64,000 nt of DNA from NCBI GenBank assembly GCA_039802005.1, contig JBDRVV010000012.1, forward strand, positions 1 to 64,000, given 5' to 3'. Positions 9,613-48,820 of this stretch are shown in pieces. The notes under the pieces were generated by a model, which made no database searches, was not told where the DNA came from, and was given only the letters and a program-made list of their open reading frames with translations. Every line of letters starts with the position of its first letter. Positions within the stretch are counted from its first letter, which is position 1. The position numbers were made by a program, and so were the translations under genes. Origin of the DNA: a candidate division WOR-3 bacterium (GTDB taxonomy: Bacteria; Hydrothermota; Tepidihabitantia; SM23-42; JAOAFX01).

Positions 9613-10956
9613 TTAAATAACCTTTTTTAATAAATCTACAAATCTATCCAGTTCTTCTTTTGTTCTCTTTTCTGTTACTGCAATCAGTAGTTGGTTCTGT
9701 AAATTTTTATTAAATATTGATAAAGGCACACCCGCAAAAATCTTGTATTCTAAAAGTTTATCAACAATCTCCCGGGCGTTTTTATCGGTTTGAATAACAA
9801 ACTCTTTAAAAAATTCTCTATTATAAACTGTCCTAATGCCTTTTATTTCTCTTAAACGGTCATAAAGATAATGGCTCTTTGCAAGACACTGATTTCCAAT
9901 CTCCACAATTCCCTGTTTACCAAGCGAGCACAAAAATATCAGTGAACTCAATGCACATAATGCCTCATTCGTACATATATTGGAAGTTGCCTTTTCTCTT
10001 CTAATATGTTGTTCACGGGTCTGGAGTGTAAGAACAAATCCTCTCTTCCCTTCTATATCCACAGTCTCACCAACGACCCTGCCGGGCATAAAACGCACAA
10101 ATTCCATCTTTGTGGCAAATATTCCAAGCAATGGTCCACCAAAACCCTGGGCTATACCCAGTCCCTGTCCCTCACCGACCGCAATATCCGCATTATAATC
10201 ACCGGGTGGAGAGATAATGCCAAGCGACAAAGGATCCACCACACTTATGAATAAAGCACCTTTTTTATGTGCCAGTTCAGATATTTCTTGTGGAGATTCA
10301 AGAATGCCATAAAAATTTGGAATTTGTATCGCCACACAGGCAGTATTTTCGTCAATGAGATTTCTCAAGGTATCAATGTCGGTAACCCCATCTTTTTGGG
10401 GGGCGATTATTATCTCCACGCCACATTCTTTTGTATAAGTTCCTACCACCTTTTGGTAAAATGGATGGATGAGTGCTGATAGAATTATCTTCTTTCTGTT
10501 ATTAATGGAACATGCCATATGACAGGCTTCGGCAAGGGCAGAACCGCCATCATACATTGAGGCATTCGCAACTTCCATCTTCGTCAATTCACATACGACA
10601 CTCTGATATTCAAATATCGTCTGGAGTGTCCCTTGTGAGACTTCCGCCTGATAAGGGGTATATGCAGTGTAAAACTCACTCCTTGAGATTATACTATCAA
10701 CAATTGCTGGAATATAATGGTCATACACACCAGCGCCGAGGAAAGATATAAAATCAAATGTATTATAGTTCATTCCTGCAAGAGAATGTAGTATCCTACG
10801 AACTTCAATTTCAGATACCTCAGACGGCAATCCAATCTTACCTTTAAACTGTATTTCAGGAGGAATAATTCTGTTAATTAGTTCTTCAAAAGAACCGACC
10901 CCAAGCCGGTTCAATATTTTTTTCTCATCCTCAGGTGTTAATGGTAGATAATGCAT
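9613..10956 (-). CDS. gcvPA: Glycine dehydrogenase (decarboxylating) subunit 1
   Basis: 447 aa, the expected size of the separate N-terminal subunit of glycine cleavage P protein. It begins MHYLPLTPEDEKKIL and contains FLGAGVYDHYIP, AYTPYQAEVSQGTLQ and GEGQGLGIAQGFGGP, all typical of GcvPA. The PLP-lysine half is GcvPB, which normally follows but is not in this window; the next gene downstream has its own promoter. Together with GcvH and GcvT it would decarboxylate glycine and pass the aminomethyl group to the lipoyl arm. The ATG overlaps the gcvH stop codon by 1 nt. Confidence 0.95.
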   Translation of the reverse strand: MHYLPLTPEDEKKILNRLGVGSFEELINRIIPPEIQFKGKIGLPSEVSEIEVRRILHSLAGMNYNTFDFISFLGAGVYDHYIPAIVDSIISRSEFYTAYTPYQAEVSQGTLQTIFEYQSVVCELTKMEVANASMYDGGSALAEACHMACSINNRKKIILSALIHPFYQKVVGTYTKECGVEIIIAPQKDGVTDIDTLRNLIDENTACVAIQIPNFYGILESPQEISELAHKKGALFISVVDPLSLGIISPPGDYNADIAVGEGQGLGIAQGFGGPLLGIFATKMEFVRFMPGRVVGETVDIEGKRGFVLTLQTREQHIRREKATSNICTNEALCALSSLIFLCSLGKQGIVEIGNQCLAKSHYLYDRLREIKGIRTVYNREFFKEFVIQTDKNAREIVDKLLEYKIFAGVPLSIFNKNLQNQLLIAVTEKRTKEELDRFVDLLKKVI

Positions 10957-11342
10957 TAGTGTCCTGCAATCAATTCTTTATATTGTTCTGCTGAAAGAAG
11001 GCTATCTAATTCAGCAGGATTATTTATCTTTATCTTGTATATCCATCCCTCATTATAAGGATCTCGGTTTATTATTGCGGGTTCTTTTATTACTTTTTCA
11101 TTTACCTCTATGACTTCACCACTGACTGGAGCAAAAAGGTCGCTCACAGCCTTAACCGCCTCGATCGTCCCGATTGCTTCACCCGCCTTTATTTGTGTTC
11201 CTACTTTTGGGGGTTCCACCATAACAATATCCGAGAGTTCAGACTGGGCATAATCAGTAATACCAGTAATTGCCACATTGCCTTCAATCTTTGCCCATTC
11301 ATGTTCTCTCGTATATTTCAATCCTTCAATGATGTTTGCCAT
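10956..11342 (-). CDS. gcvH: Glycine cleavage system H protein
   Basis: 128 aa, the standard GcvH length. The lipoylated lysine lies in GTIEAVKAVSDLFAPVSGEV, near residue 62, and the family N-terminus (KYTREHEWAKIEGNVAITGIT) is intact. It carries the aminomethyl intermediate between GcvP, GcvT and dihydrolipoamide dehydrogenase. A clear AAGGAGG site precedes the ATG, 9 nt after the gcvT stop. Its need for lipoate fits the probable lipoate-assembly genes at 40.6-45.2 kb. Confidence 0.97.
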   Translation of the reverse strand: MANIIEGLKYTREHEWAKIEGNVAITGITDYAQSELSDIVMVEPPKVGTQIKAGEAIGTIEAVKAVSDLFAPVSGEVIEVNEKVIKEPAIINRDPYNEGWIYKIKINNPAELDSLLSAEQYKELIAGH

Positions 11343-35542: not shown

Positions 35543-36598
35543 TTGGGGTTCAATATTGTCAATTTCTTTAAGAATTTAAGGAGCCATTTTTTAAGTGATG
35601 TCGCAATAGACCTTGGAACATGCACAACACTTATTTATGTCCATGGTAGGGGTATTGTTTTGAATGAACCCACCGTGGTTGCGGTTGATGTAAAAACAAA
35701 AAAGTGTGTGGCGGTTGGCGAAGAGGCAAAACGGATGCTGGGAAAAACTCCGGAAGATATCAGGGCAATCAGACCGATGAAAGATGGGGTCATTGCCGAT
35801 TTTGAAATGGTAGAATTGTTATTAAGGTCGTTTATTGAAAAAATTCAACAGAAGAAGCTTTTTACAAGACCCAGGGTCATTATTTGTGTGCCATCAGGTA
35901 TCACTGAAGTTGAAAAAAGGGCGGTGCGGGATTCGGTAGAGGCTGCAGGTGCCCGAGAAGTATATCTCGTATCTGAGCCAATCGCCGCGGCAATCGGTAT
36001 CAATCTTCCTGTTCATTTACCCCAGGGAAATATGATTATCGACATCGGTGGCGGAACCACAGAGATTGCGGTCATTGCACTCTCCGGTATTGTAACAAAT
36101 AACTCAATCCGGGTTGCCGGTGATGAAATGGATGATGCGATAGTTCAGTATATAAAAAAGAATTACAATTTAATTATTGGAGAGCAAACTGCAGAAGAAA
36201 TAAAGATTGCAATAGGAAATGCATTCCCAACCGAAGAAGATAAAACAATGGAGGTCAGGGGGCGTGACCTGGTAAAAGGTATCCCCAAGACAATAAAAAT
36301 AACGAGCCATGAAGTAAGAGAAGCAATTCAAGAACCGCTTTCAATGATCATTGAAGCGGTGAGGATTACACTCGAAAAGACTCCTCCTGAACTTGCTGCA
36401 GATATTGTTAATTCTGGAATTTATATGGCAGGTGGAGGTTCGTTATTGAGAGGAATTGATACATTGATCCGTGAAGAAACGAATCTTCCGGTCACCGTAG
36501 CAGAAGAACCAAATAAGGCAGTTGTCTATGGTGCAGGTAAAATCCTGGAAGATATGCAAAAATATGAAAAAGTAATTTTTACCTTGAAGAGAGAATAG
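35543..36598 (+). CDS. mreB: Rod shape-determining protein MreB
   Basis: 351 aa, TTG start 6 nt after a strong AAGGAGG. It has the actin/HSP70 fold with phosphate-1 loop VAIDLGTCTTLIYV, MIIDIGGGTTEIAV (phosphate-2) and IYMAGGGSLLRGIDTL (adenosine motif). It forms membrane-bound filaments that guide lateral wall synthesis with MreC, MreD, PBP2 and RodA, all encoded directly downstream. The gene set implies a rod-shaped cell with peptidoglycan. It abuts mreC with no gap. Confidence 0.96.
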   Translation: MGFNIVNFFKNLRSHFLSDVAIDLGTCTTLIYVHGRGIVLNEPTVVAVDVKTKKCVAVGEEAKRMLGKTPEDIRAIRPMKDGVIADFEMVELLLRSFIEKIQQKKLFTRPRVIICVPSGITEVEKRAVRDSVEAAGAREVYLVSEPIAAAIGINLPVHLPQGNMIIDIGGGTTEIAVIALSGIVTNNSIRVAGDEMDDAIVQYIKKNYNLIIGEQTAEEIKIAIGNAFPTEEDKTMEVRGRDLVKGIPKTIKITSHEVREAIQEPLSMIIEAVRITLEKTPPELAADIVNSGIYMAGGGSLLRGIDTLIREETNLPVTVAEEPNKAVVYGAGKILEDMQKYEKVIFTLKRE

Positions 36599-37336
36599 TT
36601 GTCCAGGGTTCAACTCTTAATATTCGGTTCCCTATTAGTCATTTCGCTTGTATTTATTATATTAAATCAAAATGTTGACTTCTATTTAAGTACCCGTCTG
36701 TCTGAGGTCTTACTCTTTCCACTCAAACTAATCTTTAACTATTTCCAGTATCTCAATGTTTCGCAGAAGAAGATAGACCTGCTTGAATCAGAAATAAGTA
36801 AACTACAGATTGAAAATCAAATAGTAAAAAGCAGTTTAAATTCATTAATGGTCTCTGACACAATTTCATATCTGCAGTTGAGACTTCTGAAGGCAAATGT
36901 AATTGGCAGAGACCCGCAGAATTTCAATGGATTTCTGTATATTGACAGGGGGTATAAAGATGGATTATCTCAAAATGCACCAGTAGTGCTCCAGAACAAA
37001 ATCATCGGCAGGGTTAAATCACTCTCGGAAAATGCCGGAGTCGTTGAAACAATTGAAAATCCTGGTTTTGCCATTAGTGCGGTAGATTCACGCTCAGGGA
37101 TATATGGAATGGTAAAAAGAAAAAAACAACTTCATTTTGAATACATAAAGGTCAATGATGATGTAATTTTAAACGATTCTATTTATACATCTGGACTGAG
37201 TGAAAATCTTCCTAAAGGATTAATGATCGGAACTGTCTCTTTAGTAAAGGAAAAAGATGATTTATTCTTTAAAGAAGTGATAATTGAGCCAGCAATAAGC
37301 ATTAATAAATTGCACTATGTCTATGTGATTTATTAA
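36599..37336 (+). CDS. mreC: Rod shape-determining protein MreC
   Basis: 245 aa, TTG start immediately after the mreB stop. One N-terminal membrane segment (LLIFGSLLVISLVFIIL), then a coiled coil (residues ~55-85, KIDLLESEISKLQIENQ), then the periplasmic double beta-barrel domain with ANVIGRDPQNFNGFLYIDRGYKDG and AISAVDSRSGIYGMV. It links MreB to the wall synthases. It is slightly shorter than average but complete. Confidence 0.93.
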   Translation: MSRVQLLIFGSLLVISLVFIILNQNVDFYLSTRLSEVLLFPLKLIFNYFQYLNVSQKKIDLLESEISKLQIENQIVKSSLNSLMVSDTISYLQLRLLKANVIGRDPQNFNGFLYIDRGYKDGLSQNAPVVLQNKIIGRVKSLSENAGVVETIENPGFAISAVDSRSGIYGMVKRKKQLHFEYIKVNDDVILNDSIYTSGLSENLPKGLMIGTVSLVKEKDDLFFKEVIIEPAISINKLHYVYVIY

Positions 37337-37341
37337 ATTTT

Positions 37342-37761
37342 ATGAGATTTTTGCTTTATTTTATACTCGTCTATTTTTTCCTTCCGATTAATTCGGCGGT
37401 TGATTTCTTAACGATTCTCGTCTATTTTGTTGTTTTAAATGAAGATAGTAGATTTTCTATATTATTTGCATTTTTTGTAGGTTTGCTAATGGACCTATAT
37501 TATCCGGTGTCACTTGGAGTAAATATATTAATCTTCTTAATCCTGACACAGGGATTAGTTTTTATAAAAAATTATTTTGTGCGTGAGCCATTAACTTTGA
37601 TAGTAGTTTTTATTATATTCTATTTTGTCAGAGTGCTTACTGCATATATAATCCCGGGAAGAATAATAATGTGGAATACGGCTGTTTTAACAATTATTTT
37701 CGCCCTTCCAGTAATATTTATTTTACAAAAAATATGTTTTAATGTATGGATCAGGAATTAA
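37342..37761 (+). CDS. mreD: Rod shape-determining protein MreD
   Basis: 139 aa with about five membrane segments and almost no soluble part, as for MreD. FAFFVGLLMDLYYPVSLGVN is the recognisable family region (G-L-x-x-D). Identification rests on this, on size and on position between mreC and the PBP2 gene (16-nt overlap with the latter). Confidence 0.85.
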   Translation: MRFLLYFILVYFFLPINSAVDFLTILVYFVVLNEDSRFSILFAFFVGLLMDLYYPVSLGVNILIFLILTQGLVFIKNYFVREPLTLIVVFIIFYFVRVLTAYIIPGRIIMWNTAVLTIIFALPVIFILQKICFNVWIRN

Positions 37762-39464
37762 AAACCTACCGATTTTTACAAACATTATTGTTCGGGGCTT
37801 TTGCCGTGATCCTTTTTTTCAGTTTAAAATTACAGATTTTTGAAGGAACAAAATATTATAGACTTTCGGAAGAAAACAGAATTAAGAAAAAATATATCAT
37901 AGCGCCACGTGGTAAAATCTATGACCGCTGGGGTAAAGAAATTGCCAATATGAGACCGGCATTTTATGTGTCAATAATTCCTGCACTGGTTGATAAAAAT
38001 TCTATTGAAACAGTAGCACGAATATTAGAAATTGATATCAATACGATTCAAAAAAAACTTAAAATAGAGAAAAATCCGTATGTCTCAGTGAAGATCAACC
38101 GTGATGTATCTTTCAAACAGATTTCTATAATTGAAGAAAAGATTGAAGAATTACCAGGGGTTGAAGTTGGTGTTGAACCCGTGCGTAATTATCCTTACAA
38201 TCAACTTCTATGCCACTTGTTAGGTTATGTAAGTGAAATAACTGACCTGGAATTGAAACAACTCAAAGAATATAAAATAGGTGATTATATCGGAAGAATA
38301 GGAATAGAACAACAGTATGAAGGAATACTCGCAGGCAAGGATGGAATAGATTACATTGAGGTAGATGTAAAAGGAAGGGAATTAGGCAAGGTTCCCGAAT
38401 ACAGACCAATCCCGCCGATTCCTGGTAATGATTTATATACAACGATTGACCTTGAATTAACCGATTCTACAGCAAAATTTCTAAAAGATTATCCAAAGGC
38501 ATCTGCCATAGCAATGAATCCGCAAAATGGTGAGATTTATGTCTTCTATTCAAAACCCGGTTTCGACCCGAATCGGTTTGTCCACGGACTTACTGATGAA
38601 GAATGGCTGGCACTAAATAATCCCAAAGAAGCACCGCTCTATAACCGTGTAACAATGAGTTGTTATCCGATAGGTTCAACGATTAAACCATTCCTTGCGC
38701 TTGGTGCCCTTGATTTAGGAATGATTGGAGCAGAAAAAAGATTTGACCCCTGCAGGGGTGGTTTGAAATTGGGCAATCGTTATTTCCGATGCTGGAAAAT
38801 ACATGGCAGTCTCAACCTCATTGATGCAATTATTTATTCCTGTGATGTATATTTTTATCAACTTGGCAGATATTTAGGAATTGACAATATAACCGACATC
38901 CTCTTTGAAGTCGGCTTTGGTAAACCCACGGGTATTGACTTCCCTCAAGAGAAAGTTGGACTTGTGCCCGAGCGCAAATGGATGGAAAGACGCTATGGCA
39001 AAAACTGGACCGAAGGTCATATATTTAATCTGAGCATTGGTCAGGGAGACATGCTTGCTACACCAATTCAACTTGCCCGGGCTTACACCATATTTGCCAA
39101 TCAGGAAAATAGCATTGTCACACCCCACTTAAATAAAAATTTAAACACAGGCAGTAAAAAAATAGAAAAAAAGATTGATGCATTAAAATTGGTGCGTGAG
39201 GCACTAAGCGGGGTTGTAGCAAGGGGGACTGGAATGATGGCGCAGGTTCAGGGTTTTGAAGTCAGCGGTAAAACAGGGACTGTTGAAAATCCACATGGTG
39301 AAGACCATTCTCTGTTTGTCGGTTATGCGCCAAAAGAAAATCCCGAAATACTTGTCTGTGTTGTTGTAGAGAATGCCGGCCATGGTGGAAGTGTTGCAGC
39401 ACCGATTGTGGGTAAGATAATAAAAACATATTACGAAATAAACAAGAGGCTCAGCAGTGAATAG
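37746..39464 (+). CDS. mrdA: Penicillin-binding protein 2 (peptidoglycan transpeptidase)
   Basis: 572 aa. N-terminal membrane anchor (about residues 10-28), then a dimerisation domain starting at APRGKIYDRWGKEIA. The transpeptidase domain has the active-site serine in YPIGSTIKPFLAL (SxxK), a YSCDVYF segment at the SxN position (Cys as the middle residue, Asp instead of Asn) and KTGT in EVSGKTGTVENP. It crosslinks lateral-wall peptidoglycan with RodA, encoded next (8-nt overlap). The SCD triad is also seen in other class B PBP2 proteins. Confidence 0.94.
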   Translation: MDQELKTYRFLQTLLFGAFAVILFFSLKLQIFEGTKYYRLSEENRIKKKYIIAPRGKIYDRWGKEIANMRPAFYVSIIPALVDKNSIETVARILEIDINTIQKKLKIEKNPYVSVKINRDVSFKQISIIEEKIEELPGVEVGVEPVRNYPYNQLLCHLLGYVSEITDLELKQLKEYKIGDYIGRIGIEQQYEGILAGKDGIDYIEVDVKGRELGKVPEYRPIPPIPGNDLYTTIDLELTDSTAKFLKDYPKASAIAMNPQNGEIYVFYSKPGFDPNRFVHGLTDEEWLALNNPKEAPLYNRVTMSCYPIGSTIKPFLALGALDLGMIGAEKRFDPCRGGLKLGNRYFRCWKIHGSLNLIDAIIYSCDVYFYQLGRYLGIDNITDILFEVGFGKPTGIDFPQEKVGLVPERKWMERRYGKNWTEGHIFNLSIGQGDMLATPIQLARAYTIFANQENSIVTPHLNKNLNTGSKKIEKKIDALKLVREALSGVVARGTGMMAQVQGFEVSGKTGTVENPHGEDHSLFVGYAPKENPEILVCVVVENAGHGGSVAAPIVGKIIKTYYEINKRLSSE

Positions 39465-40626
39465 AAAAGATTATAGTATTTTAATAATCAGCACGATAAT
39501 TTCTCTACTTGGTCTGGCAATGATATTTTCAACGGGTGGCCTCAGCTATTTCACAAGGCAGGCACTATGGCTCGGTGTTGCGGTATTAATCTGTCTAATG
39601 ATAAGCAGATTCTCAAGCCGATTCTGGCAGACATTTGCCCTACCGATATATATCTTTACCTGTATTTTAACTTTGATTGTCCTGGTCTATGCATCAAGTT
39701 ATCCAAGGCGCTGGTTCAATATTGGCTTTTTTTCTCTACAACCTTCAGAATTTGCTAAGATTGGAACGATCTTATTCCTGGCAACTTATTTAAGCGAAAG
39801 AAAAAAAATTGATAAGTTTACTGATTTTTTTATCCCGATAATCATCATAGCAATCCCTTCTTTTCTTATTTTCGTTGAACCCGACCTTGGAGCCGCCCAG
39901 ATTTTTTTCCCGATTATGTGTATTATGCTTTTCTGGGCAGGCATGCCATTTGAGAAAATCTTAATATTTTTCTCGCCGATAATTTCGGCTATAACAAGTT
40001 TTTCTATATATACATGGCTCGGATTTATGATAATCTTTGGCATCTTCGTTTATTCAAGAAAAAAATTAACTGAAATACTTTACCATTTAATTGCTAACCC
40101 AATAGCTGGACTCATAACTCCGATTATCTGGCATTCATTAAAATCATACCAGCAAAAAAGAATCATTGCATTTCTCTCGCCCTGGATCGACCCCCAGGGA
40201 ATTTCCTGGCAGTCCATACAATCAAAGATTGCGATCGGATCAGGACGTTTATTTGGCAAGGGATTTCTATCCGGCACCCAGAAAAAGTTAGAATTCTTAC
40301 CCGAACGACACACGGATTTTATCTTCTCCTGTATTGGTGAAGAGTTTGGATTGATTGGAATTTTAATAACTGTATTGTTGTATATCTTTCTTTTTTATAA
40401 GCTCTTAAGGATTGCACGCGAAACAAAGAATAAATTTCTAAGCCTTGTTGTCATTGGGATTATGTCCTGGTTGTGGTATCAGGCGTTCATAAATATGGGT
40501 ATGACGCTCGGCATACTTCCAATCACCGGTGTACCACTGCCATTCATCAGTTACGGTGGTTCTGCACTCCTTTCCTGTTTCATTGGAATCGGTATTGTTC
40601 TTTCAATTATCCATAATAAATATTGA
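39457..40626 (+). CDS. rodA: Rod shape-determining protein RodA (peptidoglycan glycosyltransferase)
   Basis: 389 aa polytopic SEDS protein with about ten membrane segments. Motifs are SYPRRWFNIGFFSLQPSEFAKIG, FVEPDLGAAQIF, the extracellular LPERHTDFIFSCIGEEFG with the catalytic-type Asp, and ITGVPLPFISYGGSALLSC near the C-terminus. It polymerises lipid II together with PBP2. Its stop overlaps the ligase start by 1 nt (TGATG), so the cell-shape block runs without a break into the lipoate-type genes. Confidence 0.95.
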   Translation: MNRKDYSILIISTIISLLGLAMIFSTGGLSYFTRQALWLGVAVLICLMISRFSSRFWQTFALPIYIFTCILTLIVLVYASSYPRRWFNIGFFSLQPSEFAKIGTILFLATYLSERKKIDKFTDFFIPIIIIAIPSFLIFVEPDLGAAQIFFPIMCIMLFWAGMPFEKILIFFSPIISAITSFSIYTWLGFMIIFGIFVYSRKKLTEILYHLIANPIAGLITPIIWHSLKSYQQKRIIAFLSPWIDPQGISWQSIQSKIAIGSGRLFGKGFLSGTQKKLEFLPERHTDFIFSCIGEEFGLIGILITVLLYIFLFYKLLRIARETKNKFLSLVVIGIMSWLWYQAFINMGMTLGILPITGVPLPFISYGGSALLSCFIGIGIVLSIIHNKY

Positions 40627-42191
40627 TGGATAATAGAATTTGGCGTCTTCTTGATACAGGGGTTTTAAATGCTGCAGAAAATATGGCTATTGATGAAATG
40701 CTCCTTGAACTGCGTGCAAAAAATCAAATACCGAATACATTGAGAATACTGCAATTTAGTCCCCCGGCTACCCTTGTTGGATTCCATCAGTCAATTGAAC
40801 AAGAAATCAGGATTGATTATTGTAACAAAATGGGCATTGATATAAACCGCCGTATAACCGGTGGTGGTGCTATCTTTTTTGACAAAACTCAATTGGGCTG
40901 GGAGATAATCTGTAGTAAAGATTTTTTCAATAATTCTATGCCCAATGTTGAATTGTTTAAAAAACTTTCTTTACCCATAATCAATATGCTCGGGCAACTT
41001 GGAATAAATGCGAACTTCAGGGGACGAAATGATATAGAAGTAAATGGCAGGAAAATATCTGGTACCGGGGGTGTTGAATGGGGAAATGCATTTTTATTTC
41101 AGGGAACGCTACTCGTTGATTTTGATGTTGATACAATGCTAAGGGCACTCCGTATCCCGATTGAAAAACTGAAAAGGCATGAGATTGATTCCTTAAAAGA
41201 AAGGGTAACCTGTATTAAATGGGAACTCGGCTATACACCCGATATTAAAATTCTGAAAGGGCTGATCAAAAAAAGTTTTGAGAAAGATTTTGGTATAAAA
41301 TTAATAAAATCAAATTTGACAGTACTGGAATTAAACTCACTGCCCGCCTATTTGGAAAAATTCCGTTCAGATAAATGGATATACAAAGTCAGGGCGCCAA
41401 TATCTGAACAACCTGTGCTTTATATTACTCGCCTGAGCAAGGCGGGAAAAATCAAGGCATTTTTTACGCTGAATCTGCGCCAAAAAAGAATTCAAAGTGT
41501 CATATTTATGGGTGACTTTTTTGCCTATCCATCACGGGCAATATTTGACCTTGAGGCAGTATTTAAAGAGATGCCCCTGGAAAAAGAATTGATCATTAAT
41601 AAAATAAAAGAATATTTTCAGAATTATAAAAATCTTTATATACCTTATGTAAAGATTGAAGATTTTATAAAGATTATAGATGGTCTTTTTGAAAAATTGA
41701 ATATCATAGAACTCGGTATTTCACCCGAACAATCAAATCACATATTCCTTGTCAATGGTTCATACGAAGGAATCCTTAAAAATAAACCCAATTATCTACT
41801 TCTCCCCTATTGTGCCAAATCAACCAAGTGCTCTTATCGGTATAAAGACCAGTGCGAGATGTGCGATGATTGTACAGTCGGCGATGCATACAGAATCGCC
41901 ATTGCATTAAATATCAAACCGATTACGATTACGAGTTTTGAAGATTTAATTGCAAAACTTAGAAAATTAAAAAGGAACAAGGCATCAGGATATATTGGAT
42001 GCTGCTGCGAACAATTCTATACAAAACATCAGGATAGATTTGAGTCTGCAGGCATTCCAGCAATACTACTTGACATATATAACGAAACTTGTTATGATTT
42101 AGGTAAGGCAACTTTTGCCTACAAAGGTGAATTTGAAAATCAGACGAATCTAAATTTGGAATTATTAAGGAAGGTGCTTGATGGAATATGA
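40626..42191 (+). CDS. Lipoate-protein ligase / octanoyltransferase fused to DUF116
   Basis: 521 aa, about twice a simple LplA catalytic domain. Residues ~1-240 are the BPL/LplA fold: NRRITGGGAIFFDKTQLGW near residue 75 and RNDIEVNGRKISGTGGVEWG, whose Lys is the expected catalytic lysine. A linker of ~100 residues resembles the LplA accessory domain. The last ~145 residues match DUF116 (cysteine-rich metal-binding), with CAKSTKCSYRYKDQCEMCDDC and GCCCEQF. It could load octanoate or lipoate onto GcvH. The gene is followed by a GGR-like flavoprotein and two radical SAM proteins, a neighbourhood like that reported for LipS1/LipS2-type lipoate assembly. ATG 40626 is chosen over the TTG one codon earlier. 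Confidence 0.85.
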   Translation: MDNRIWRLLDTGVLNAAENMAIDEMLLELRAKNQIPNTLRILQFSPPATLVGFHQSIEQEIRIDYCNKMGIDINRRITGGGAIFFDKTQLGWEIICSKDFFNNSMPNVELFKKLSLPIINMLGQLGINANFRGRNDIEVNGRKISGTGGVEWGNAFLFQGTLLVDFDVDTMLRALRIPIEKLKRHEIDSLKERVTCIKWELGYTPDIKILKGLIKKSFEKDFGIKLIKSNLTVLELNSLPAYLEKFRSDKWIYKVRAPISEQPVLYITRLSKAGKIKAFFTLNLRQKRIQSVIFMGDFFAYPSRAIFDLEAVFKEMPLEKELIINKIKEYFQNYKNLYIPYVKIEDFIKIIDGLFEKLNIIELGISPEQSNHIFLVNGSYEGILKNKPNYLLLPYCAKSTKCSYRYKDQCEMCDDCTVGDAYRIAIALNIKPITITSFEDLIAKLRKLKRNKASGYIGCCCEQFYTKHQDRFESAGIPAILLDIYNETCYDLGKATFAYKGEFENQTNLNLELLRKVLDGI

Positions 42192-43221
42192 TGTCCTAAT
42201 TGTTGGTGCTGGACCCGCGGGAGCAACAACAGGTTGGCATATTGCCCGCGAAAATTTTAGAGTCCTAATGGTTGATAAAAAGAAAGAAGTTGGAGTTCCG
42301 GTTCAATGTGCAGAATATATTCCTGCCCTTCTTTCAAAAGAAATAACGATCCCAAGTGATGCAATTGCAAATGAAATAAAGGGATTGAAGATATATTTCC
42401 CGGATAATCGTTCATATGCGTTTTCTGCCCCGGGTTATATTCTGAATCGTGCAATTTTTGATAAATATTTAACATTGAATGCAGTTAAAGCCGGTGCTCG
42501 TTTATGGCTAAAAACAAAATTCCTTGGAATTGAAAACGATAAAATTCTGCTTTCCCAGAATGGTAGAATGATAGAAATAAAAGCCAAAATCATTATCGGT
42601 GCCGATGGTCCAAATTCCCGGGTAAGTCGTTTTATAAACAGACGCTATAAAGATTATGTCGTTGCCTATCAACAAGAATTACCGTTAATTGAAAAAATGG
42701 AACATACCGAAGTTTATTTTGATGAAAAATTTTTCGGTGGTTATGCCTGGTTATTTCCCAAAAAACAAAGTGCTAATGTTGGATTGGGTGTGAGAATTGG
42801 TTATAAAATAAAAGTTAAGGAATTATTTATTCAATTTATTGAAAGACTTGTAAAAGATAAAAAAGTTCTTAATACACCTTTAAAAACTGTCACTGGTTTG
42901 ATCCCTGTAGGTGGGCCGGTTCAAACCATAAAAAATAATATCTTACTCGTTGGCGATGCCGCAGGACAGACCCATCCAATCACCGGGGCGGGCATTTCTC
43001 AAGCAGTATTATGTGCGAAATTTGCTGCGGACGCAGTTAAAAAAACACTGCAAAAAAATGATTTGAATTTACTAAATATTTATGGAAAGGAATGGCAGAA
43101 TATCTATCTTGAAGAATTGAATCGAGCAATAAAAAAGAGGGAGTTAATGGAAAAGAACTGGAACAGAATAACAGATATTTTAAAAGAATGCTGGGTGTCA
43201 TTCCCTGAATACTATGGATGA
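42181..43221 (+). CDS. Geranylgeranyl-reductase-like FAD-dependent oxidoreductase
   Basis: 346 aa. The N-terminal dinucleotide fold is DVLIVGAGPAGATTGWHIA. A conserved Cys follows in VQCAEY, then GADGPNSRVSRF and the FAD motif LLVGDAAGQTHPITGAGI. This is the GGR family of FAD proteins that reduce isoprenoid double bonds, but members also occur beside lipoate-assembly genes (LipT-type flavoproteins). Given the neighbours, a role in lipoate assembly rather than archaeal-type lipid reduction is my inference. ATG 42181 lies 11 nt inside the ligase gene; GGTG is upstream. Confidence 0.85.
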   Translation: MEYDVLIVGAGPAGATTGWHIARENFRVLMVDKKKEVGVPVQCAEYIPALLSKEITIPSDAIANEIKGLKIYFPDNRSYAFSAPGYILNRAIFDKYLTLNAVKAGARLWLKTKFLGIENDKILLSQNGRMIEIKAKIIIGADGPNSRVSRFINRRYKDYVVAYQQELPLIEKMEHTEVYFDEKFFGGYAWLFPKKQSANVGLGVRIGYKIKVKELFIQFIERLVKDKKVLNTPLKTVTGLIPVGGPVQTIKNNILLVGDAAGQTHPITGAGISQAVLCAKFAADAVKKTLQKNDLNLLNIYGKEWQNIYLEELNRAIKKRELMEKNWNRITDILKECWVSFPEYYG

Positions 43222-44131
43222 TTTAAAAAATCTTGCAAAAAAGGCAAGAGAGATATCATATTCTCACCACGGGAAGAAAATTACATTCTATATACCAGGA
43301 ATGTTTCACTATAATGGTATTAAAGGAAATTTCCCGGGTGTATCACTCACCGGGAAATCCTGTGGACTGAATTGTGCCCATTGTCAGGGCAGACTCTTAG
43401 AATCTATGTTACCAGTTGAAAGTGCAAATCAACTTTTAGACTTAGGAGAAATGCTTTACAAAAATAATGCCGTTGGTTTCCTCTTAAGCGGAGGTTTTGA
43501 TTCAAATCATACAATTCCTTTGATAGACTATATCCCAGCAATTAAAAAAATTAAGGAAAGAACTGGTTTAAAAATCACGCTCCACTGTGGTATTCTGGAC
43601 CAGAAGACCTGTATTATGCTTAAAGAAGCAGGCATAGACCAAGCCCTTATTGATGTAATAGGCGATGATGATACAATAAAAAATGTATACAGAACAGAGA
43701 AAAAGGTTGATGATATAATAGATACAATAAAGAACCTGTTAAATGCCCAAATCCCTGTCATACCCCATATCGTTGTTGGATTAAATTATGGGAAAATTTC
43801 CGGTGAACACCGGGCACTTGAGATAATAAAAGATTTTCCCATTAGTACTCTCGTCTTTGTCAGCCTTATGCCTGTTCCCGATACCCCGATGGAAAATATA
43901 AAAACTCCGACTGCGGAAGAAATTGCACGATTGGTGATCAATGCCCGTTTTAAAATGCCCAAACTTATCATTGCACTGGGATGTGCCCGAAAAAGGGGAT
44001 ATAAAGATATTGACCTATGGGCAATTGAATGTGGTGTGAATCGCATTGCCCTGCCCGCGGACGAAGCGGTAGCAAAGGCAAAGGAATATAATCTTTTTAT
44101 TGAATGGCAGAAAACCTGCTGTTCGTTATAG
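43214..44131 (+). CDS. Radical SAM protein, COG1856-like (candidate LipS-type sulfur insertase)
   Basis: 305 aa. The radical SAM cluster motif is C-x3-C-x2-C in GKSCGLNCAHCQGR near residue 55, after an unusual IPGMFHYNGIKGNFPGVSLTG lead-in. Further signatures are GFLLSGGFDSN, TLHCGILD and LMPVPDTPMENIKTPT. Extra cysteines near the C-terminus (GCARKRG, IECGV, CCSL) may hold a second Fe-S cluster, as in sulfur-inserting enzymes. The family is biotin-synthase-related. Its pairing with the next gene and the LplA-DUF116 gene suggests LipS1/LipS2 function; which of the two it corresponds to I cannot say. Overlaps the GGR gene by 8 nt. Confidence 0.8.
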   Translation: MDDLKNLAKKAREISYSHHGKKITFYIPGMFHYNGIKGNFPGVSLTGKSCGLNCAHCQGRLLESMLPVESANQLLDLGEMLYKNNAVGFLLSGGFDSNHTIPLIDYIPAIKKIKERTGLKITLHCGILDQKTCIMLKEAGIDQALIDVIGDDDTIKNVYRTEKKVDDIIDTIKNLLNAQIPVIPHIVVGLNYGKISGEHRALEIIKDFPISTLVFVSLMPVPDTPMENIKTPTAEEIARLVINARFKMPKLIIALGCARKRGYKDIDLWAIECGVNRIALPADEAVAKAKEYNLFIEWQKTCCSL

Positions 44132-44143
44132 AAGGGGGTGTAA

Positions 44144-45178
44144 ATGAAAATGGAAAGTCCTGATTATATCCGAATCAGTCAGGCCGCCGCAATGGTTCTG
44201 GGTTTTAAAAGTGGTTTGTTTTACCGAAATGCAAAATCACCCTGTATTAATATCCTGCTCACCTATGAAAACGGTTGTGCAGGCAATTGCGCGTATTGTG
44301 GATTATCAATGAAAAGGCCTGGTGAATACAGAGAGAAAAGTTTCATAAGGGTTGAATGGAATAATTATCCAATCAGTGAAGTCATACAAAGAATTAAAAA
44401 TAAGAATGACTACATCAGACGCATCTGTATCTCAATGATTACAAATCGCCGTGCGGTAAATGATACAAAAAAGATTATACAGATGCTCCATAACGAAGTT
44501 CCATATCCAATTTCAGTCCTTGCTGCACCAACCATTCTCAGCCAAGAAGATTTCTTGGAAATGAAAAAACTTGGTGCTGACCGACTGGGAATAGCAGTTG
44601 ATGCCTGCACCCCAAGATTGTTTGAGCAATTTCGTGGCAAAGGTGTAAAGGGACCGCATAAGTGGGAAACCTACTGGTCAGCACTTCAGCAGGCGGTTTC
44701 GGCATTTGGCAGGGGTTATGTTGGTGTCCATCTCATCGTTGGACTTGGTGAAACTGAAAAAGAAATGGTAGAAACGATTCAAAAAGCGCAAGATAGTGGT
44801 ATTGAAACCCATCTATTCAGTTTTTTCCCTGAATCAGACTCAATACTTGCCCATCAAAATCCACCCAACATCGGAACCTACCGCAGGATTCAACTTGCGC
44901 GGTATTTAATAAATAAAAATGTTTGCACAATAAAAGAATTTGAATTTGATGAGAAAGGTAGAATTACAAAATTCAATATCCCTGAACCTGAACTTGAAAA
45001 ACACATAAACTCAGGGAAACCTTTTATGACAAGTGGTTGCCCTGGTGAAGATGGCGAAGTCGCTTGCAACCGCCCCTATTCTGATTCACTACCAGGTGAC
45101 GATATAAGAAATTTTCCATTCTTGCCTGACCCGAATGATATTGCAAAAATAAAAAAGGAACTGAAGATATATGTATAA
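44144..45178 (+). CDS. Radical SAM protein, BioB-related COG2516-like (candidate LipS-type sulfur insertase)
   Basis: 344 aa. Cluster motif C-x3-C-x2-C in ENGCAGNCAYCGLSMKRPG near residue 46, then RRICISMITNRRAV, GADRLGIAVDACTP and HLIVGLGETEKEMV, which resemble biotin synthase/lipoyl synthase-like barrels. The C-terminal segment SGCPGEDGEVACNRPY contributes two more Cys that could ligand an auxiliary Fe-S cluster serving as sulfur donor. A strong GAAGGGGG site precedes the ATG, 12 nt after the previous gene. Probable partner of the preceding radical SAM protein. It overlaps the FAD-oxidase gene by 8 nt. Confidence 0.8.
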   Translation: MKMESPDYIRISQAAAMVLGFKSGLFYRNAKSPCINILLTYENGCAGNCAYCGLSMKRPGEYREKSFIRVEWNNYPISEVIQRIKNKNDYIRRICISMITNRRAVNDTKKIIQMLHNEVPYPISVLAAPTILSQEDFLEMKKLGADRLGIAVDACTPRLFEQFRGKGVKGPHKWETYWSALQQAVSAFGRGYVGVHLIVGLGETEKEMVETIQKAQDSGIETHLFSFFPESDSILAHQNPPNIGTYRRIQLARYLINKNVCTIKEFEFDEKGRITKFNIPEPELEKHINSGKPFMTSGCPGEDGEVACNRPYSDSLPGDDIRNFPFLPDPNDIAKIKKELKIYV

Positions 45179-46598
45179 CAAAATAAACGAAAAAATCATA
45201 GATAAACTTCTCTCAATTCTTGGCAAGGAAAATGTTATATTAGAAAAAGAAGCACTGGAAAACTATGCCCATGATGAAACACCGCTTTATCAATCAATGC
45301 CCGAAGTTGTAGTAAAACCGGTGAATAAAAAACAAATTTCAGAAATAATGGTGATTGCAAATGAAAATCAAATACCGGTAACCCCGCGGGGTGGTGGGAC
45401 AAGTCTTTCCGCAGGTGCCGTCCCAATCCACAATGGTATTGTCCTATCGCTCGAAAGGATGAATCATATCAAAGAGGTTGATGAAAAAAATCTGATGGCA
45501 ATTGTAGAACCGGGTATCATAACCGGAATAATGGAAAAAGAACTTGCTCGGTATAATCTTTTCTTTCCCCCTGACCCAGTAAGCCTTGATTCCTGTACTA
45601 TTGGGGGGAACATTGCGGAATGTGCAGGTGGACCAAGGGCGATGAAATATGGCGTTACAAAAAACTATATAACGGGTTTAGAAATAGTACTCGCGGATGG
45701 TGAAATTATCAGATTGGGTGGCAAATTGCTCAAAAATGTGACTGGTTATGATATGCTCAGTTTGTTTATTGGCTCAGAAGGCACGCTCGGAATTGTCACT
45801 GAAGCAACCATAAAAGCACTGGTGATTCCTGAAATAATCGTTGACCTTTATATCCCATTTAAAACCGTCTCTGATGCCTCGAATTTTTCTATTGAAGTTC
45901 TGAATAGCGGTTTAACTCCCACCGCGATTGAACTTATGGAAGGCGAAGTTGTAAGAATGGTTGAAAAATATCTACAGAGAAGGGTTCCATATAGTGAAGC
46001 AAATGGACACACAATCGTAGAAATAGACGGTAATGATAAAGAATATTTGAGAAAAATCTGGGAAAAAATTGGGGATATTGCATTAAAATTCAATGCCATG
46101 GATGTGCTTGTAGCCGAAACTCTCCAGGATCGGGAGCGGGTATGGGAAATAAGAAAGAAGATCGGCGATTCCCTAAAATCACAAACAAAAATAATAGCCC
46201 GAGAAGATTTGGTAGTTCCCAGGGATAAAATACCTGAATTAATATATCAATTAAAGGAATGTGTGAAAAATTTTGGTTGTGAACTCTATGCATTCGGACA
46301 TCTCGGCGACGGGAATATGCATACCGATGTTGGATGCATAGAAGAGAAGGATAAAAAATTGAATGGCAAAGATTGGATTGCCGAGATGCGTAAAAAAATG
46401 TATGAGTTCACAATCCAACTCGGTGGAACGATAACCGCCGAGCACGGCGTGGGTTTATCAAAAATTCCCTACCTTGCCCTTGCCCTTGATAAGAAAACGA
46501 TTGAATTGATGTTGCAAATAAAAAAAGAATTCGACCCCAAGAACATTCTCAACCCGGGCAAAATATTTCCAAATATTTTAGGTAATTTAGGTGTTTAG
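45171..46598 (+). CDS. FAD-linked oxidase, GlcD / D-lactate dehydrogenase family
   Basis: 475 aa. The PCMH-type FAD-binding domain comprises VTPRGGGTSLSAGAVP near residue 74, DSCTIGGNIAECAGGPRAMKYG and IGSEGTLGIVTEATIK. The C-terminal FAD-oxidase domain has GHLGDGNMHTDVG and AEHGVGLSKIPY. Such proteins oxidise 2-hydroxyacids such as glycolate or D-lactate, often with a separate Fe-S subunit, which is absent here. The exact substrate is unknown. Co-transcribed with the radical SAM genes by overlap; a functional link to lipoate assembly is not evident. Confidence 0.88.
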   Translation: MYNKINEKIIDKLLSILGKENVILEKEALENYAHDETPLYQSMPEVVVKPVNKKQISEIMVIANENQIPVTPRGGGTSLSAGAVPIHNGIVLSLERMNHIKEVDEKNLMAIVEPGIITGIMEKELARYNLFFPPDPVSLDSCTIGGNIAECAGGPRAMKYGVTKNYITGLEIVLADGEIIRLGGKLLKNVTGYDMLSLFIGSEGTLGIVTEATIKALVIPEIIVDLYIPFKTVSDASNFSIEVLNSGLTPTAIELMEGEVVRMVEKYLQRRVPYSEANGHTIVEIDGNDKEYLRKIWEKIGDIALKFNAMDVLVAETLQDRERVWEIRKKIGDSLKSQTKIIAREDLVVPRDKIPELIYQLKECVKNFGCELYAFGHLGDGNMHTDVGCIEEKDKKLNGKDWIAEMRKKMYEFTIQLGGTITAEHGVGLSKIPYLALALDKKTIELMLQIKKEFDPKNILNPGKIFPNILGNLGV

Positions 46599-46613: not shown

Positions 46614-47318
46614 ATGATTCGTGCCTTCATTGAAACCTCTCTAATTGACTGGGATGGAAAGATAACCTCAGTGCTCTTTTTTGATCGGTGTAATTTTCGT
46701 TGTCCCTTCTGTCAAAACTGGCGTTTGATAATCAATCCCAAAAAATATCCAGAGTATAATATTGATGAAATTTTAAAAAAAATTTTGCATAAAAAAAACT
46801 GGATTGATGGCATCGTCCTCACCGGTGGTGAACCTCTAATATTTTTTGACGATATAATTGGAATAGCAAGAAAGATTAAAAAAAATAACCTGTTAATAAA
46901 ACTTGATACCAACGGTTCATTGCCGGAACAATTAGAGCGTTTGATAAAATTAAACTTAATTGATTATGTCGCAATGGATATCAAGGCACCGTTTGACCAA
47001 ACATACTTTATCGCCACCGGCAAGAACCCAAAAACAAACCCCAAACTTATTGAGAAGGTCAAAAGAACGATAAAAATCCTTATGGATTTAAATATTGATT
47101 ATGAATTCAGAACGACCTGTGTGCCAGGATTGATTGATGAAAAGGCAATAATAAAAATAGGAGAAGAAATAAAAGGGGCAAAGAGATGGGCTCTACAAAG
47201 ATTTATACCTTTCAATGCCTATAAAAAAGAATATCGTAGCAAGACCTTTGATGATCAACAATTAAATGAATTCCTTAGCATTGCACGATCCATAGTCCCT
47301 GATTCAAAACTTAGATAG
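46614..47318 (+). CDS. Radical SAM activating enzyme (NrdG/TIGR02495-like)
   Basis: 234 aa. Radical SAM motif C-x3-C-x2-C in FFDRCNFRCPFCQNWRL near residue 26, then GIVLTGGEPLIFFDD, IKLDTNGS and VAMDIKAPFDQTY. The size and order match 'anaerobic ribonucleotide reductase activating protein' of the TIGR02495 type and related glycyl-radical-enzyme activases. No glycyl-radical enzyme is encoded nearby, so its partner is elsewhere. It starts 15 nt after the oxidase gene with no clear ribosome site, and is probably the last gene of the mreB-led operon. Confidence 0.85.
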   Translation: MIRAFIETSLIDWDGKITSVLFFDRCNFRCPFCQNWRLIINPKKYPEYNIDEILKKILHKKNWIDGIVLTGGEPLIFFDDIIGIARKIKKNNLLIKLDTNGSLPEQLERLIKLNLIDYVAMDIKAPFDQTYFIATGKNPKTNPKLIEKVKRTIKILMDLNIDYEFRTTCVPGLIDEKAIIKIGEEIKGAKRWALQRFIPFNAYKKEYRSKTFDDQQLNEFLSIARSIVPDSKLR

Positions 47319-47362
47319 AAATCAAAAACTCAAATTAAGACTTAAGTTTAGATTTTATATAA

Positions 47363-47390
47363 TTGACAATTTTGTTCTTTTGATTATAAT
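47363..47390 (+). promoter_or_regulatory. Promoter of the radical SAM/SPASM-tyrS pair, leaderless layout
   Basis: TTGACA (47363-47368), 16-nt spacer, TATAAT (47385-47390), 5 nt to ATG 47396: both boxes are full consensus. Confidence 0.88.
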
Positions 47391-47395
47391 TTCGT

Positions 47396-48820
47396 ATGAA
47401 ACTGGAGACAAAGGTAAAAATAAACAATTTCCTTATGAAAAATTTATTATATGGAATTTTTCACAGTGGAAATAATCCTTTGCTCCGTCCTGTACTATTA
47501 CCTGTTGTGGAAAAAGGTATCTGGCTTGCGCTTAATAATGTTCCTGGACCAGTAGGCTTGCCGGGTGTATTAAAGGATAAATTCTATATGCTCAGGGCAA
47601 TGGTCTACTCAGGCATCCGATTTGGAACTACATCAAAGTTTACTGACACCATAGTTAACAAGGCAATCTTGAGTAATCTAAGGGCAGAAAAGGAAAAAGA
47701 ATTTCGTGCGGTATTTGGATTTGACCCACCAGGTTTTATGACTATTTCTCCTGCAAAGAAATGCAATTTGAGGTGTAAGGGCTGTTATGCAAATTCCGCA
47801 TCAGAAAAAGACCAGTTGCCATACGATATTTTTTCAAGGGCGATAAAAGAGATGCGAGACCTCTGGGGTGCAAGATTTGTTGTAATATCAGGCGGCGAAC
47901 CAATGCTTTATAAATGGAATAACAAAGGAATCATTGATATATTTGAAGAACATCCCGATTCATTATTTCTGATGTATACAAATGGCAGTTTAATAACTGA
48001 AGAAATAGCAGACAAATTTGGCAAATTGGGGAATATTACACCGGCAATATCTGTAGAAGGAATGGAAGAAACAACCGAAAGAAGGAGAGGTAAAGGTTTC
48101 TTTGATAAAATAGTCCGTACCCTGACCCTTTTGAGAAAATACCGTGTGACCTTTGGAATATCAATAACTGCGACAAGGGAGAATGCCGAAGAAATTGTCT
48201 CTGATGAATTTATTGATTTCTATTTTAACAAACTTGGGGCAGCCTATGCCTGGGTCTTCCATTATATGCCTATTGGCAGAGATATTGCCCCTGAATTAAT
48301 TCCCACACCAGAACAGAGGGTAATGCTCTGGGAAAAAAGCTGGGAAATTATCAGGAATAGAAAGATTATGTATGCGGATTTTTGGAATCATGGTCCGGTA
48401 TCGGATGGTTGTATCTCAGCAGGAAGACCTGGTGGTTATTTCTACATTGACTGGCACGCCAATGTCTTTCCCTGCGTTTTTTTCCCTTATGCTGCAGCCA
48501 ACCTTAAAGAAATTTATGAAAATGGTGGTAATCTAAATGATTTAATAAACCTGCCTTTGCATAAAAAAATCCGGGAATGGCAATTCAAATACTGGAAAGA
48601 AGGAGATTTATTAAGACCCTGCCCGATTCGTGACCATTATCTAATTGCAAAGAACTTTGTGCTTGAAACACAGGCGAAACCAGCAGACCAATCAGCAGAG
48701 GAAATATTGAATAGCCCTGATTATGAAAAGAAAATGGCAGAATATGATTTTGAGTTAGAAAGAAAAACCAGAGTAATCTGGGAAAAGGTGTATAGAAATG
48801 GAGCCAGAAAAGCAGTTTGA
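47396..48820 (+). CDS. Radical SAM protein with SPASM-like C-terminus
   Basis: 474 aa. About 110 residues of helical N-terminal sequence precede the radical SAM core. The cluster motif is SPAKKCNLRCKGCYAN (C-x3-C-x2-C) near residue 122, followed by VVISGGEPMLY, LMYTNGSL and AISVEGMEETTERRRG. C-terminal cysteines in DGCISAGRPGGYFYIDW, VFPCVFF and LLRPCPIRDHY suggest a SPASM-type auxiliary cluster. Related proteins modify peptides or act as anaerobic maturases, but I see no precursor peptide gene beside it. Translation is probably leaderless. It overlaps tyrS by 23 nt. Confidence 0.83.
   Translation: MKLETKVKINNFLMKNLLYGIFHSGNNPLLRPVLLPVVEKGIWLALNNVPGPVGLPGVLKDKFYMLRAMVYSGIRFGTTSKFTDTIVNKAILSNLRAEKEKEFRAVFGFDPPGFMTISPAKKCNLRCKGCYANSASEKDQLPYDIFSRAIKEMRDLWGARFVVISGGEPMLYKWNNKGIIDIFEEHPDSLFLMYTNGSLITEEIADKFGKLGNITPAISVEGMEETTERRRGKGFFDKIVRTLTLLRKYRVTFGISITATRENAEEIVSDEFIDFYFNKLGAAYAWVFHYMPIGRDIAPELIPTPEQRVMLWEKSWEIIRNRKIMYADFWNHGPVSDGCISAGRPGGYFYIDWHANVFPCVFFPYAAANLKEIYENGGNLNDLINLPLHKKIREWQFKYWKEGDLLRPCPIRDHYLIAKNFVLETQAKPADQSAEEILNSPDYEKKMAEYDFELERKTRVIWEKVYRNGARKAV

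Follow-up and report, generated by a model that had tools for sequence, protein, structure and literature searches.

The closest described counterparts of the locus analyzed here are the sLpl(AB)-LipS1/S2-LipT systems of sulfur-oxidizing Proteobacteria, which have the same cluster content, with a ligase comprising LplA and LplB, LipS1, LipS2, and LipT (PMC10332631, Tanabe et al. 2023; PMC6067878, Cao et al. 2018). In bacteria, this system commonly co-occurs with LipA, and its clients are GcvH-like proteins, not E2 (PMC10332631, PMC6067878). DUF116 has 0 occurrences in the main text of each of these papers. The LipS1 and LipS2 enzymes of Thermococcus kodakarensis, for which the consulted passages of PMC9585515 report no DUF116, are active in vitro when neither DUF116 nor LipT is present, and by that account the chemistry strictly requires neither. 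That source also describes LipS1/S2 as thought to destroy 1 auxiliary cluster per turnover, names both the renewal route and what lipoate does in many of the organisms with LipS1/S2 as open questions, and already reports GcvH, CCG/HdrB-like, and HdrA-like neighbors of LipS1/LipS2.

We analyzed 64,000 nucleotides (the window, meaning this whole stretch of DNA) from a MAG of the candidate phylum WOR-3/Caldifarciminota, in which positions 40623-45178 encode an LplA-LplB-DUF116 chain, a GGR-like flavoprotein of LipT type, LipS1, and LipS2 in 4 open reading frames lying back to back on the plus strand, where the original prediction had placed them. The fused lipoate/octanoate-protein ligase (40623..42191; PF21948, PF10437, and PF01976 in one 522-aa frame) is overlapped by 14 bases by the gene of a LipT-type FAD oxidoreductase of the geranylgeranyl-reductase superfamily (42178..43221; TIGR02032), followed by LipS1 (43214..44131; NF053742) and LipS2 (44144..45178; NF053743), each with CX3CX2C and auxiliary residues. 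A gene absent from the original prediction belongs to the same run, encoding a GlcD/lactate-dehydrogenase-like FAD-linked oxidase without the CCG part (45171..46598, plus strand); it shares 8 bases with the end of lipS2 and has a counterpart at the same-genus locus L050. Upstream in this run lie mreB-mreC-mreD-PBP2-rodA (35543..40626, plus strand), with rodA overlapping the ligase gene by 4 bases. The operon shared with mreBCD-mrdA-rodA, as first described, is present in the window and kept in the same genus (L050 and L058), but it was not found in the family's next genus (L047) or at the other loci examined; the mre genes are genus-specific context outside the lipoylation pathway.

Within the ligase chain, profile matches on the plus strand placed the LplA catalytic domain at ~40668-41279 and the LplB-like accessory domain at ~41442-41678, with DUF116 behind them at ~41781-42098 by HMM and ~41742-42188 by alignment. 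The PF21948 LplA-B_cat match was over its cut-off in the profile search (158.7 bits), and the PF10437 LplB-like domain scored 23.4 bits, just below the cut-off of 24. The catalytic-type lysine K144 (RNDIEVNGRKISG) and the RRITGGGA motif are both intact. Because this ligase-type lysine is invariant in 44/44 and no invariant cysteine was found in the aligned catalytic domains, the protein was assigned as a ligase and not as a LipB/LipM-type transferase, and a fold search grouped it with solved LplA structures. Judged from its sequence, the chain has the LplA and LplB-type domains, the ligase lysine, and the lack of a transferase cysteine by which sLpl(AB) lipoate:protein ligases are recognized, whereas comparison with the published description of the proteobacterial sLpl(AB) shows an additional C-terminal DUF116 in the window ligase. 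The ligase half also matches the LplA-LipA fusion family (NF053790, 139.5 bits), although the window protein has no LipA.

LipS1 and LipS2 were identified from curated family models in place of a tree with characterized members. The LipS1 match (248.7 bits) is above the curated cut-off of 230; that of LipS2 covers 292/292 positions with 247.3 bits, below a cut-off of 270 that no genome of the phylum reached, with the next family at 54. The radical SAM CX3CX2C cysteines of LipS1 (C50, C54, and C57) and its C257, C302, C303, and H185 are invariant in 64/64 relatives, as are those of LipS2 (C45, C49, and C52, with C95, C299, C308, and H196) in 63/63. By order and spacing only, the additional LipS1 residues correspond to T. 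kodakarensis C230, C276, C277, and H159, and by order those of LipS2 correspond to C85, C276, C279, and H178; on this matching, all cluster-ligand cysteines of the T. kodakarensis pair have invariant counterparts in the relatives. Set against the T. kodakarensis pair of PMC9585515, the window pair shares the radical SAM motif and all auxiliary ligands defined by mutagenesis, but its LipS2 has a C-terminal CX8C pair in place of CX2C, and its genes adjoin whereas lipS1 and lipS2 of T. kodakarensis are >130 genes apart. The LipT candidate is an FAD-binding oxidoreductase whose gene is linked to lipS1/S2, an assignment based on this linkage and on TIGR02032 (209.7 bits, over cut-off). The family models and the invariant cluster ligands agree on the LipS1/LipS2-type module with a LipT-like flavoprotein that had been predicted.

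The prediction had also presented this module as an alternative to LipA/LipB and proposed a check for their absence. Both are encoded in the source genome, lipA at C2:124865-125743 (383 bits, cut-off 310) and lipB as a protein of 218 aa (TIGR00214, 187 bits, cut-off 84), so replacement was rejected and the operon is a second system. Canonical lipA/lipB together with radical SAM proteins placed outside LipS1/LipS2 had been named as evidence against the module; the former was found, and the family models place both proteins inside. Among fusion-bearing genomes, LipA was not found in 18/50, and in 5 of these 18 the fusion is the sole LplA/LipB-family protein.

The DUF116 domain (PF01976) was matched with 38.8 bits against a cut-off of 25, covering profile positions 38-143 of 155, and its predicted model has a mean pLDDT of 91. 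It contains 8 cysteines that are invariant in 54/54 tails (C397, C403, C411, C414, C417, C461, C462, and C490), among them a run spaced CX5CX7CX2CX2C and an adjacent CC pair. No PDB entry matched better than E 0.13 in the fold search, and the sequence search against the PDB found no relative, so the fold assigns no function and cysteine conservation is the basis for proposing Fe-S binding. Stand-alone DUF116 proteins of methanogens and others share this Pfam family with the window domain and differ from it in not being fused to a ligase; the stand-alone copies of this phylum (G009/L057 and G085/L059) had no lip genes in the fetched stretch. Among the papers searched, none was found to have DUF116 and lipoate together.

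Using a fusion-type DUF116 query, we retrieved the 80 nearest bacterial and archaeal loci from a species-wide collection. LplA-LplB was fused to DUF116 in 80/80, a count that has no bearing on stand-alone DUF116 since the query itself was of the fusion type. In the fetched stretch, lipS1 or lipS2 was present at 71/80 and at least 1 of lipT, lipS1, and lipS2 at 78/80, with a LipT-like ORF at nearly all loci. This survey of fusions and neighbors, which the original prediction had proposed, upholds the single-chain fusion it called notable but makes it the usual form of the subfamily and no peculiarity of the source genome. Fusions were grouped away from nearly all non-fused ligases in the ligase tree and may have one single origin. 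In one Bacillota chain (L129), DUF116 lies between ligase and LipA (LplA-LplB-DUF116-LipA), in contrast to the NF053790 fusions that join ligase and LipA without it, and the DUF116 ligase is therefore tied directly to a lipoyl synthase. Among 147 genomes of the phylum, 16 had the fusion, 17 had LipS2, and 15 had both (Fisher p 2e-17; p 2e-7 at family level), the pair thus occurring in 14 further genomes besides the source genome; where LipS2 occurred without the fusion, contigs break off within the cluster. The viral contigs searched gave no match. Because the same setting recurs in at least 80 genomes from bacteria and archaea, the DUF116 tail probably has a working part in lipoyl assembly, and its cysteines suggest that it probably carries Fe-S clusters used for sulfur insertion. 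A role in the acyl or sulfur step, suggested at the outset, is still something we infer, now from a much stronger linkage.

As predicted, the window encodes GcvH with an intact lipoylation lysine (10956..11342, minus strand; IEAVKAVSD). It is a canonical glycine-cleavage H protein within a gcvT-gcvH-gcvPA run, a possible client that LipA/LipB can also serve, and a KW-type GcvH-like carrier appears the likeliest client ahead of it. KW-type GcvH genes are often beside GlcD/CCG-type dehydrogenase genes, and at most loci examined in the window's phylum beside LarA-like and/or FAD-oxidase genes. At 8 loci, KW-type GcvH and/or GlcD/CCG genes stand in apparent operons with lip genes, interleaved with them at L129. 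In fusion genomes without LipA and with a single H-type protein, this protein was of the KW type in 6/6. A KW-type match was found in 13/17 LipS2 genomes and 33/130 LipS2-less genomes of the phylum (p 6e-5, the genomes being phylogenetically not independent), and these 33 genomes led us to reject a strict rule of obligate LipS1/S2 clients. In the next family, related genomes retain KW-type GcvH without LipS2, so LipA/LipB can evidently serve this carrier too and the client matching may not be exclusive. The GcvH-like candidate client C7 has 2 cysteines, in GETCGK and ENDCRL, with none near either end; it was rejected as LbpA, whose conserved cysteines lie near the N- and C-terminus, although some archaeal LbpA members likewise lack both. 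The carrier also differs from the LbpA/sHdr system in lying beside FAD-linked oxidase/CCG genes and not in an sHdr sulfur-oxidation cluster. A literature search joining lipoate or GcvH to lactate or glycolate oxidation gave no match.

The best reading of the operon is a variant of the known sLpl(AB)-LipS1/S2 pathway, its new part being the cysteine-rich DUF116 tail, which is undescribed in that role. It is quite likely that this is a second, self-contained lipoylation system with a DUF116 Fe-S tail and a mainly KW-type client. What the sequences themselves show is which genes are present, how the domains are ordered, that catalytic and cluster residues are invariant, and that the genes are linked in a conserved way and co-occur. 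The ligase half would attach octanoate (or lipoate) to the lysine of a GcvH-like carrier in an ATP-dependent reaction. LipS2 would then insert sulfur into C8 of the attached octanoyl group, followed by LipS1 at C6, each consuming 1 auxiliary [4Fe-4S] cluster, with LipT as the putative source of reducing power. The LipS2 and LipS1 chemistry is taken from published work on homologues, and the ligase substrate, the DUF116 role, and the client identity are our proposals. As an Fe-S domain, DUF116 may tether the machinery for sulfur insertion to the complex of ligase and client, and either renew the sacrificed auxiliary clusters or relay LipT electrons to the radical SAM enzymes. A KW-type carrier would be the main client, paired with FAD-linked 2-hydroxyacid dehydrogenase/CCG-domain proteins, not the glycine-cleavage H protein.

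DUF116 could instead serve mainly in client recognition, its cysteines binding zinc or a structural cluster while it selects the GcvH-like carrier and docks LipS1/S2 with no redox or sulfur chemistry of its own. Its constant fusion to the ligase, the component needing to recognize the client (80/80 loci), the clustering of client genes with lip genes, and LipS1/S2 chemistry being possible without it (PMC9585515) fit this scaffold, but 8 invariant cysteines exceed the needs of a recognition fold, LipT accompanies the fusion at nearly all loci, and one chain joins DUF116 to LipA, so that we hold it to be unlikely, though worth serious attention. Enzymes of Fe-S-dependent pathways often carry iron-sulfur sensors, and the hosts appear to be mostly anaerobic, both of which would suit a regulatory switch whose cluster senses iron or oxygen status and toggles the ligase; the fusion, however, has been retained together with the same partners in bacteria and archaea that are far apart, as is more in keeping with a core part of the mechanism than with a regulator, and a switch seems improbable.

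A similar weighing applies to the pathway and its client. That the operon serves the window's canonical GcvH as a redundant backup for LipA/LipB is rather doubtful: the intact lysine of this protein and the canonical GcvH ~5 kb from the lip cluster at the related loci L079, L080, and L088 would agree with it, but the LipA-less genomes with one H-type protein (6/6) and the apparent operons both point to KW types. Very unlikely, in our estimate, is a scavenging operon in which the ligase salvages free lipoate only and the radical SAM pair does other work, such as biotin-like sulfur insertion. The presence of LipA and LipB, which cover de novo synthesis, and the weak BioB match of both radical SAM proteins speak for it; against it, LipS1 is over its cut-off, LipS2 matches its full profile far above the next family, all auxiliary-cluster ligands are kept, and LipA went undetected in 18/50 hosts, in which salvage alone would not require 2 sulfur-insertion enzymes.

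Returning to a second lipoylation system with a DUF116 Fe-S tail, we tentatively propose, as a possibility short of even chances, that DUF116 is an unrecognized LipS1/S2 part, a ligase-borne Fe-S module for renewing the sacrificed clusters (or feeding in LipT electrons) while the client is held, and that a KW-type lipoyl carrier, matured by this system, links FAD-linked 2-hydroxyacid dehydrogenases with CCG/Hdr proteins in electron transfer. The 8-cysteine DUF116, present on the pathway's ligase in no fewer than 80 genomes from the two domains and in one case also joined to LipA, is a concrete candidate for cluster renewal; the linked KW-type carrier and FAD/CCG genes offer a candidate client and hint that protein-bound lipoate may have a new use. 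If true, lipoamide would have a role besides those in glycine cleavage, sHdr sulfur oxidation, and 2-oxoacid dehydrogenases, and DUF116, a domain of unknown function, would gain its first function.

The source MAG (2.54 Mb, 97.6% complete), whose named relatives carry the label candidate division WOR-3 (NCBI Caldifarciminota), holds the window on its contig C12, where a plus-strand gene run with overlaps or small gaps between genes extends from mreB (35543) through tyrS (49988). Profile searches recovered all domains and families of the four-part module of the original prediction at 40623-45178 on the plus strand, including a 522-aa ligase fusion (LplA/B catalytic domain, 158.7 bits; LplB-type accessory domain, a weak 23.4 bits; cysteine-rich DUF116, 38.8 bits), a LipT-like flavoprotein of the geranylgeranyl-reductase superfamily (209.7 bits), LipS1 (248.7 bits, over the cut-off), and LipS2, which matched the whole profile at 247.3 bits without reaching the strict cut-off of 270, the next family scoring 54 bits. 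A glcD-like FAD oxidase gene (45171-46598), absent from that description, shares 8 bases with the end of lipS2. Two more radical SAM genes (46614-48820) follow glcD in the same run, the first NrdG2-like by eye, and both are kept at least partly in locus L050 of the same genus. The predicted sharing of an operon with the mre cell-shape genes was seen in both other genus members (L050 and L058) but not in the family's next genus (L047) or in outside loci, and this linkage is a local gene-order feature outside the mechanism.

The reading as a LipS1/LipS2-type lipoyl pathway proved right, by profile scores and invariant cluster residues. In PMC9585515, mutagenesis of the Thermococcus kodakarensis enzymes assigns C230, C276, and C277 as auxiliary-cluster ligands of LipS1, with H159 the likely fourth, and C85, C276, and C279 as those of LipS2, with H178 grouped there and tested. 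Matched to these by order and spacing rather than direct alignment, C257, C302, C303, and H185 of LipS1 were invariant in 64 of 64 sequences and C95, C299, C308, and H196 of LipS2 in 63 of 63 (window and relatives), in each case besides CX3CX2C. The RRxTGGGA motif is present in the ligase, whose structure model (mean pLDDT 90) matches LplA structures already solved. Its ligase-type lysine, K144, was invariant in 44 of 44 sequences, among which the catalytic domain had no invariant cysteine; this favors a ligase over a LipB/LipM transferase.

The module had also been cast as an alternative to LipA/LipB, with a search for absence of both genes proposed, but the same genome encodes lipA (C2:124865-125743, 383 bits) and lipB (C28, 218 aa, 187 bits vs. 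a cut-off of 84), which refutes replacement in this organism. Across the phylum, lipA was identified in 131 of 147 genomes independently of LipS2 (p = 1.0), in agreement with the remark that LipA and LipS1/S2 often occur together in bacteria (PMC10332631). Many of the phylum lipA matches, spread over families, had one in-frame stop, which may reflect sequencing error or a stop at the match edge. No LipA was seen in 18 of 50 fusion-carrying genomes, absences that are provisional because most are MAGs, and in 5 of the 18 (bacterium Yes71-08, Thermodesulfobacteriota Yes70-18, Thermoplasmata RS_9_71, Subteraquimicrobium, and Altiarchaeales) the fusion was the only LplA/LipB-family protein found. 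The LipS1/S2-type system may well stand alone in other hosts. Some genomes with the DUF116 ligase (Chloroflexota, Thermodesulfobacteriota, and others) additionally encode LipB and LipA as one chain of 514-566 aa (L206-L210).

The fusion of ligase and DUF116, singled out as notable, is real, but that view was too narrow. Within the phylum, the fusion was present in 16 genomes, LipS2 in 17, and both in 15 (Fisher p 2e-17); at family level, both were found in 8 families and LipS2 only in 1 (p 2e-7). The contig stops inside the cluster in the 2 LipS2-only genomes and just past lipT in the single fusion-only genome. The fusion is not due to chance. A scan for fusion-type DUF116, with one genome per species, gave 199 confirmed stretches, and the best 80, fetched, all encoded ligase and DUF116 (L060 split by a frame break, L074 and L111 cut by contig ends), a uniformity inside the subfamily rather than of all DUF116, since the scan was itself run with the fusion-type domain. 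The proposed survey of neighbors found lipS1 or lipS2 within the fetched stretch in 71 of the 80 and at least 1 of lipT, lipS1, and lipS2 in 78, the remainder being mostly cut by contig ends (L068 is uncut). Hosts included Thermodesulfobacteriota, Chloroflexota, Bacillota, Caldisericota, Actinomycetota, Nitrospinota, Thermoplasmatota, Bathyarchaeota, Nitrososphaerota, Asgard lineages, and others. In the ligase tree, fusions were set apart from non-fused ligases, except for one 248-aa fragment, and may have a single origin.

We surveyed H-type proteins as candidate clients. The GcvH encoded in the window belongs to a glycine-cleavage operon and is a canonical H protein, and 2 further GcvH-domain proteins are encoded in the genome. 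One is a response-regulator receiver fused to a GcvH-like domain with the lysine kept (TSAKQIY; C36:11046-11798). The other, of 143 aa with SSKW in place of AVKA (KW type), lies upstream of genes for a LarA-like racemase and an 831-aa FAD-oxidase (GlcD)/CCG fusion (C7:19148-23453; L036:7149-11454), an association with LarA-like and/or FAD-oxidase genes kept in most of the 30 phylum loci examined. KW-type proteins were the main GcvH-like neighbors in outside loci, and KW-type or GlcD/CCG/HdrA genes share an apparent operon with lip genes in 8 loci, interleaved in L129. Among the loci read, 17 of the 18 LipA-less fusion genomes had a KW-type copy (one copy in Jordarchaeum, the remaining genome, was unread), as did 6 of 6 with one H-type protein. 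The next family's retention of the KW-type set without LipS2 counts against a strict LipS1/S2-client rule. CCG, HdrA, and GcvH neighbors of LipS1/S2 were noted earlier in general terms in PMC9585515, in passages that mention neither the FAD-linked oxidase link nor DUF116. A second GcvH-like protein, with methionine replacing the lipoylation lysine (EHGMRV), adjoins the FAD/CCG genes in Terraquivivens and in a related archaeon (L060, L061, L063, and L066; e.g., L061:17426-17827), and one Bacillota contig (JA1.bin10, G157:C288; L224, L195, and L242) has 4 GcvH-like genes, several unusually long with cysteines, plus ligase-like frames.

DUF116 resembled no solved structure by sequence or fold search, and its model is a confident (pLDDT 91) alpha/beta domain. 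Eight tail cysteines were invariant in 54 of 54 sequences, in a pattern (CX5CX7CX2CX2C, CC, C) that suggests one or two Fe-S clusters. We found no description of DUF116 in a lipoyl-assembly context in the open-access literature searched. The auxiliary clusters of LipS1/S2 are thought to be consumed as sulfur source (PMC9585515), and the partner flavoprotein to provide electrons (PMC10332631). At L129 (2559-5069; Bacillota bacterium SKS3.bin89, also L211), a single open frame encodes LplA-LplB-DUF116-LipA (836-859 aa), physically tying the ligase-DUF116 unit to the other lipoyl synthase type; its run also has 2 GcvH-like genes, FAD oxidase, CCG protein, lipT, lipS2, and lipS1. From these partners and the LipA fusion, we therefore favor a role in sulfur insertion, over recognition or regulation, in which DUF116 would act by cluster renewal or electron supply. 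The operon represents a widespread, undescribed form of a known pathway, one that carries a conserved but unexplained domain.
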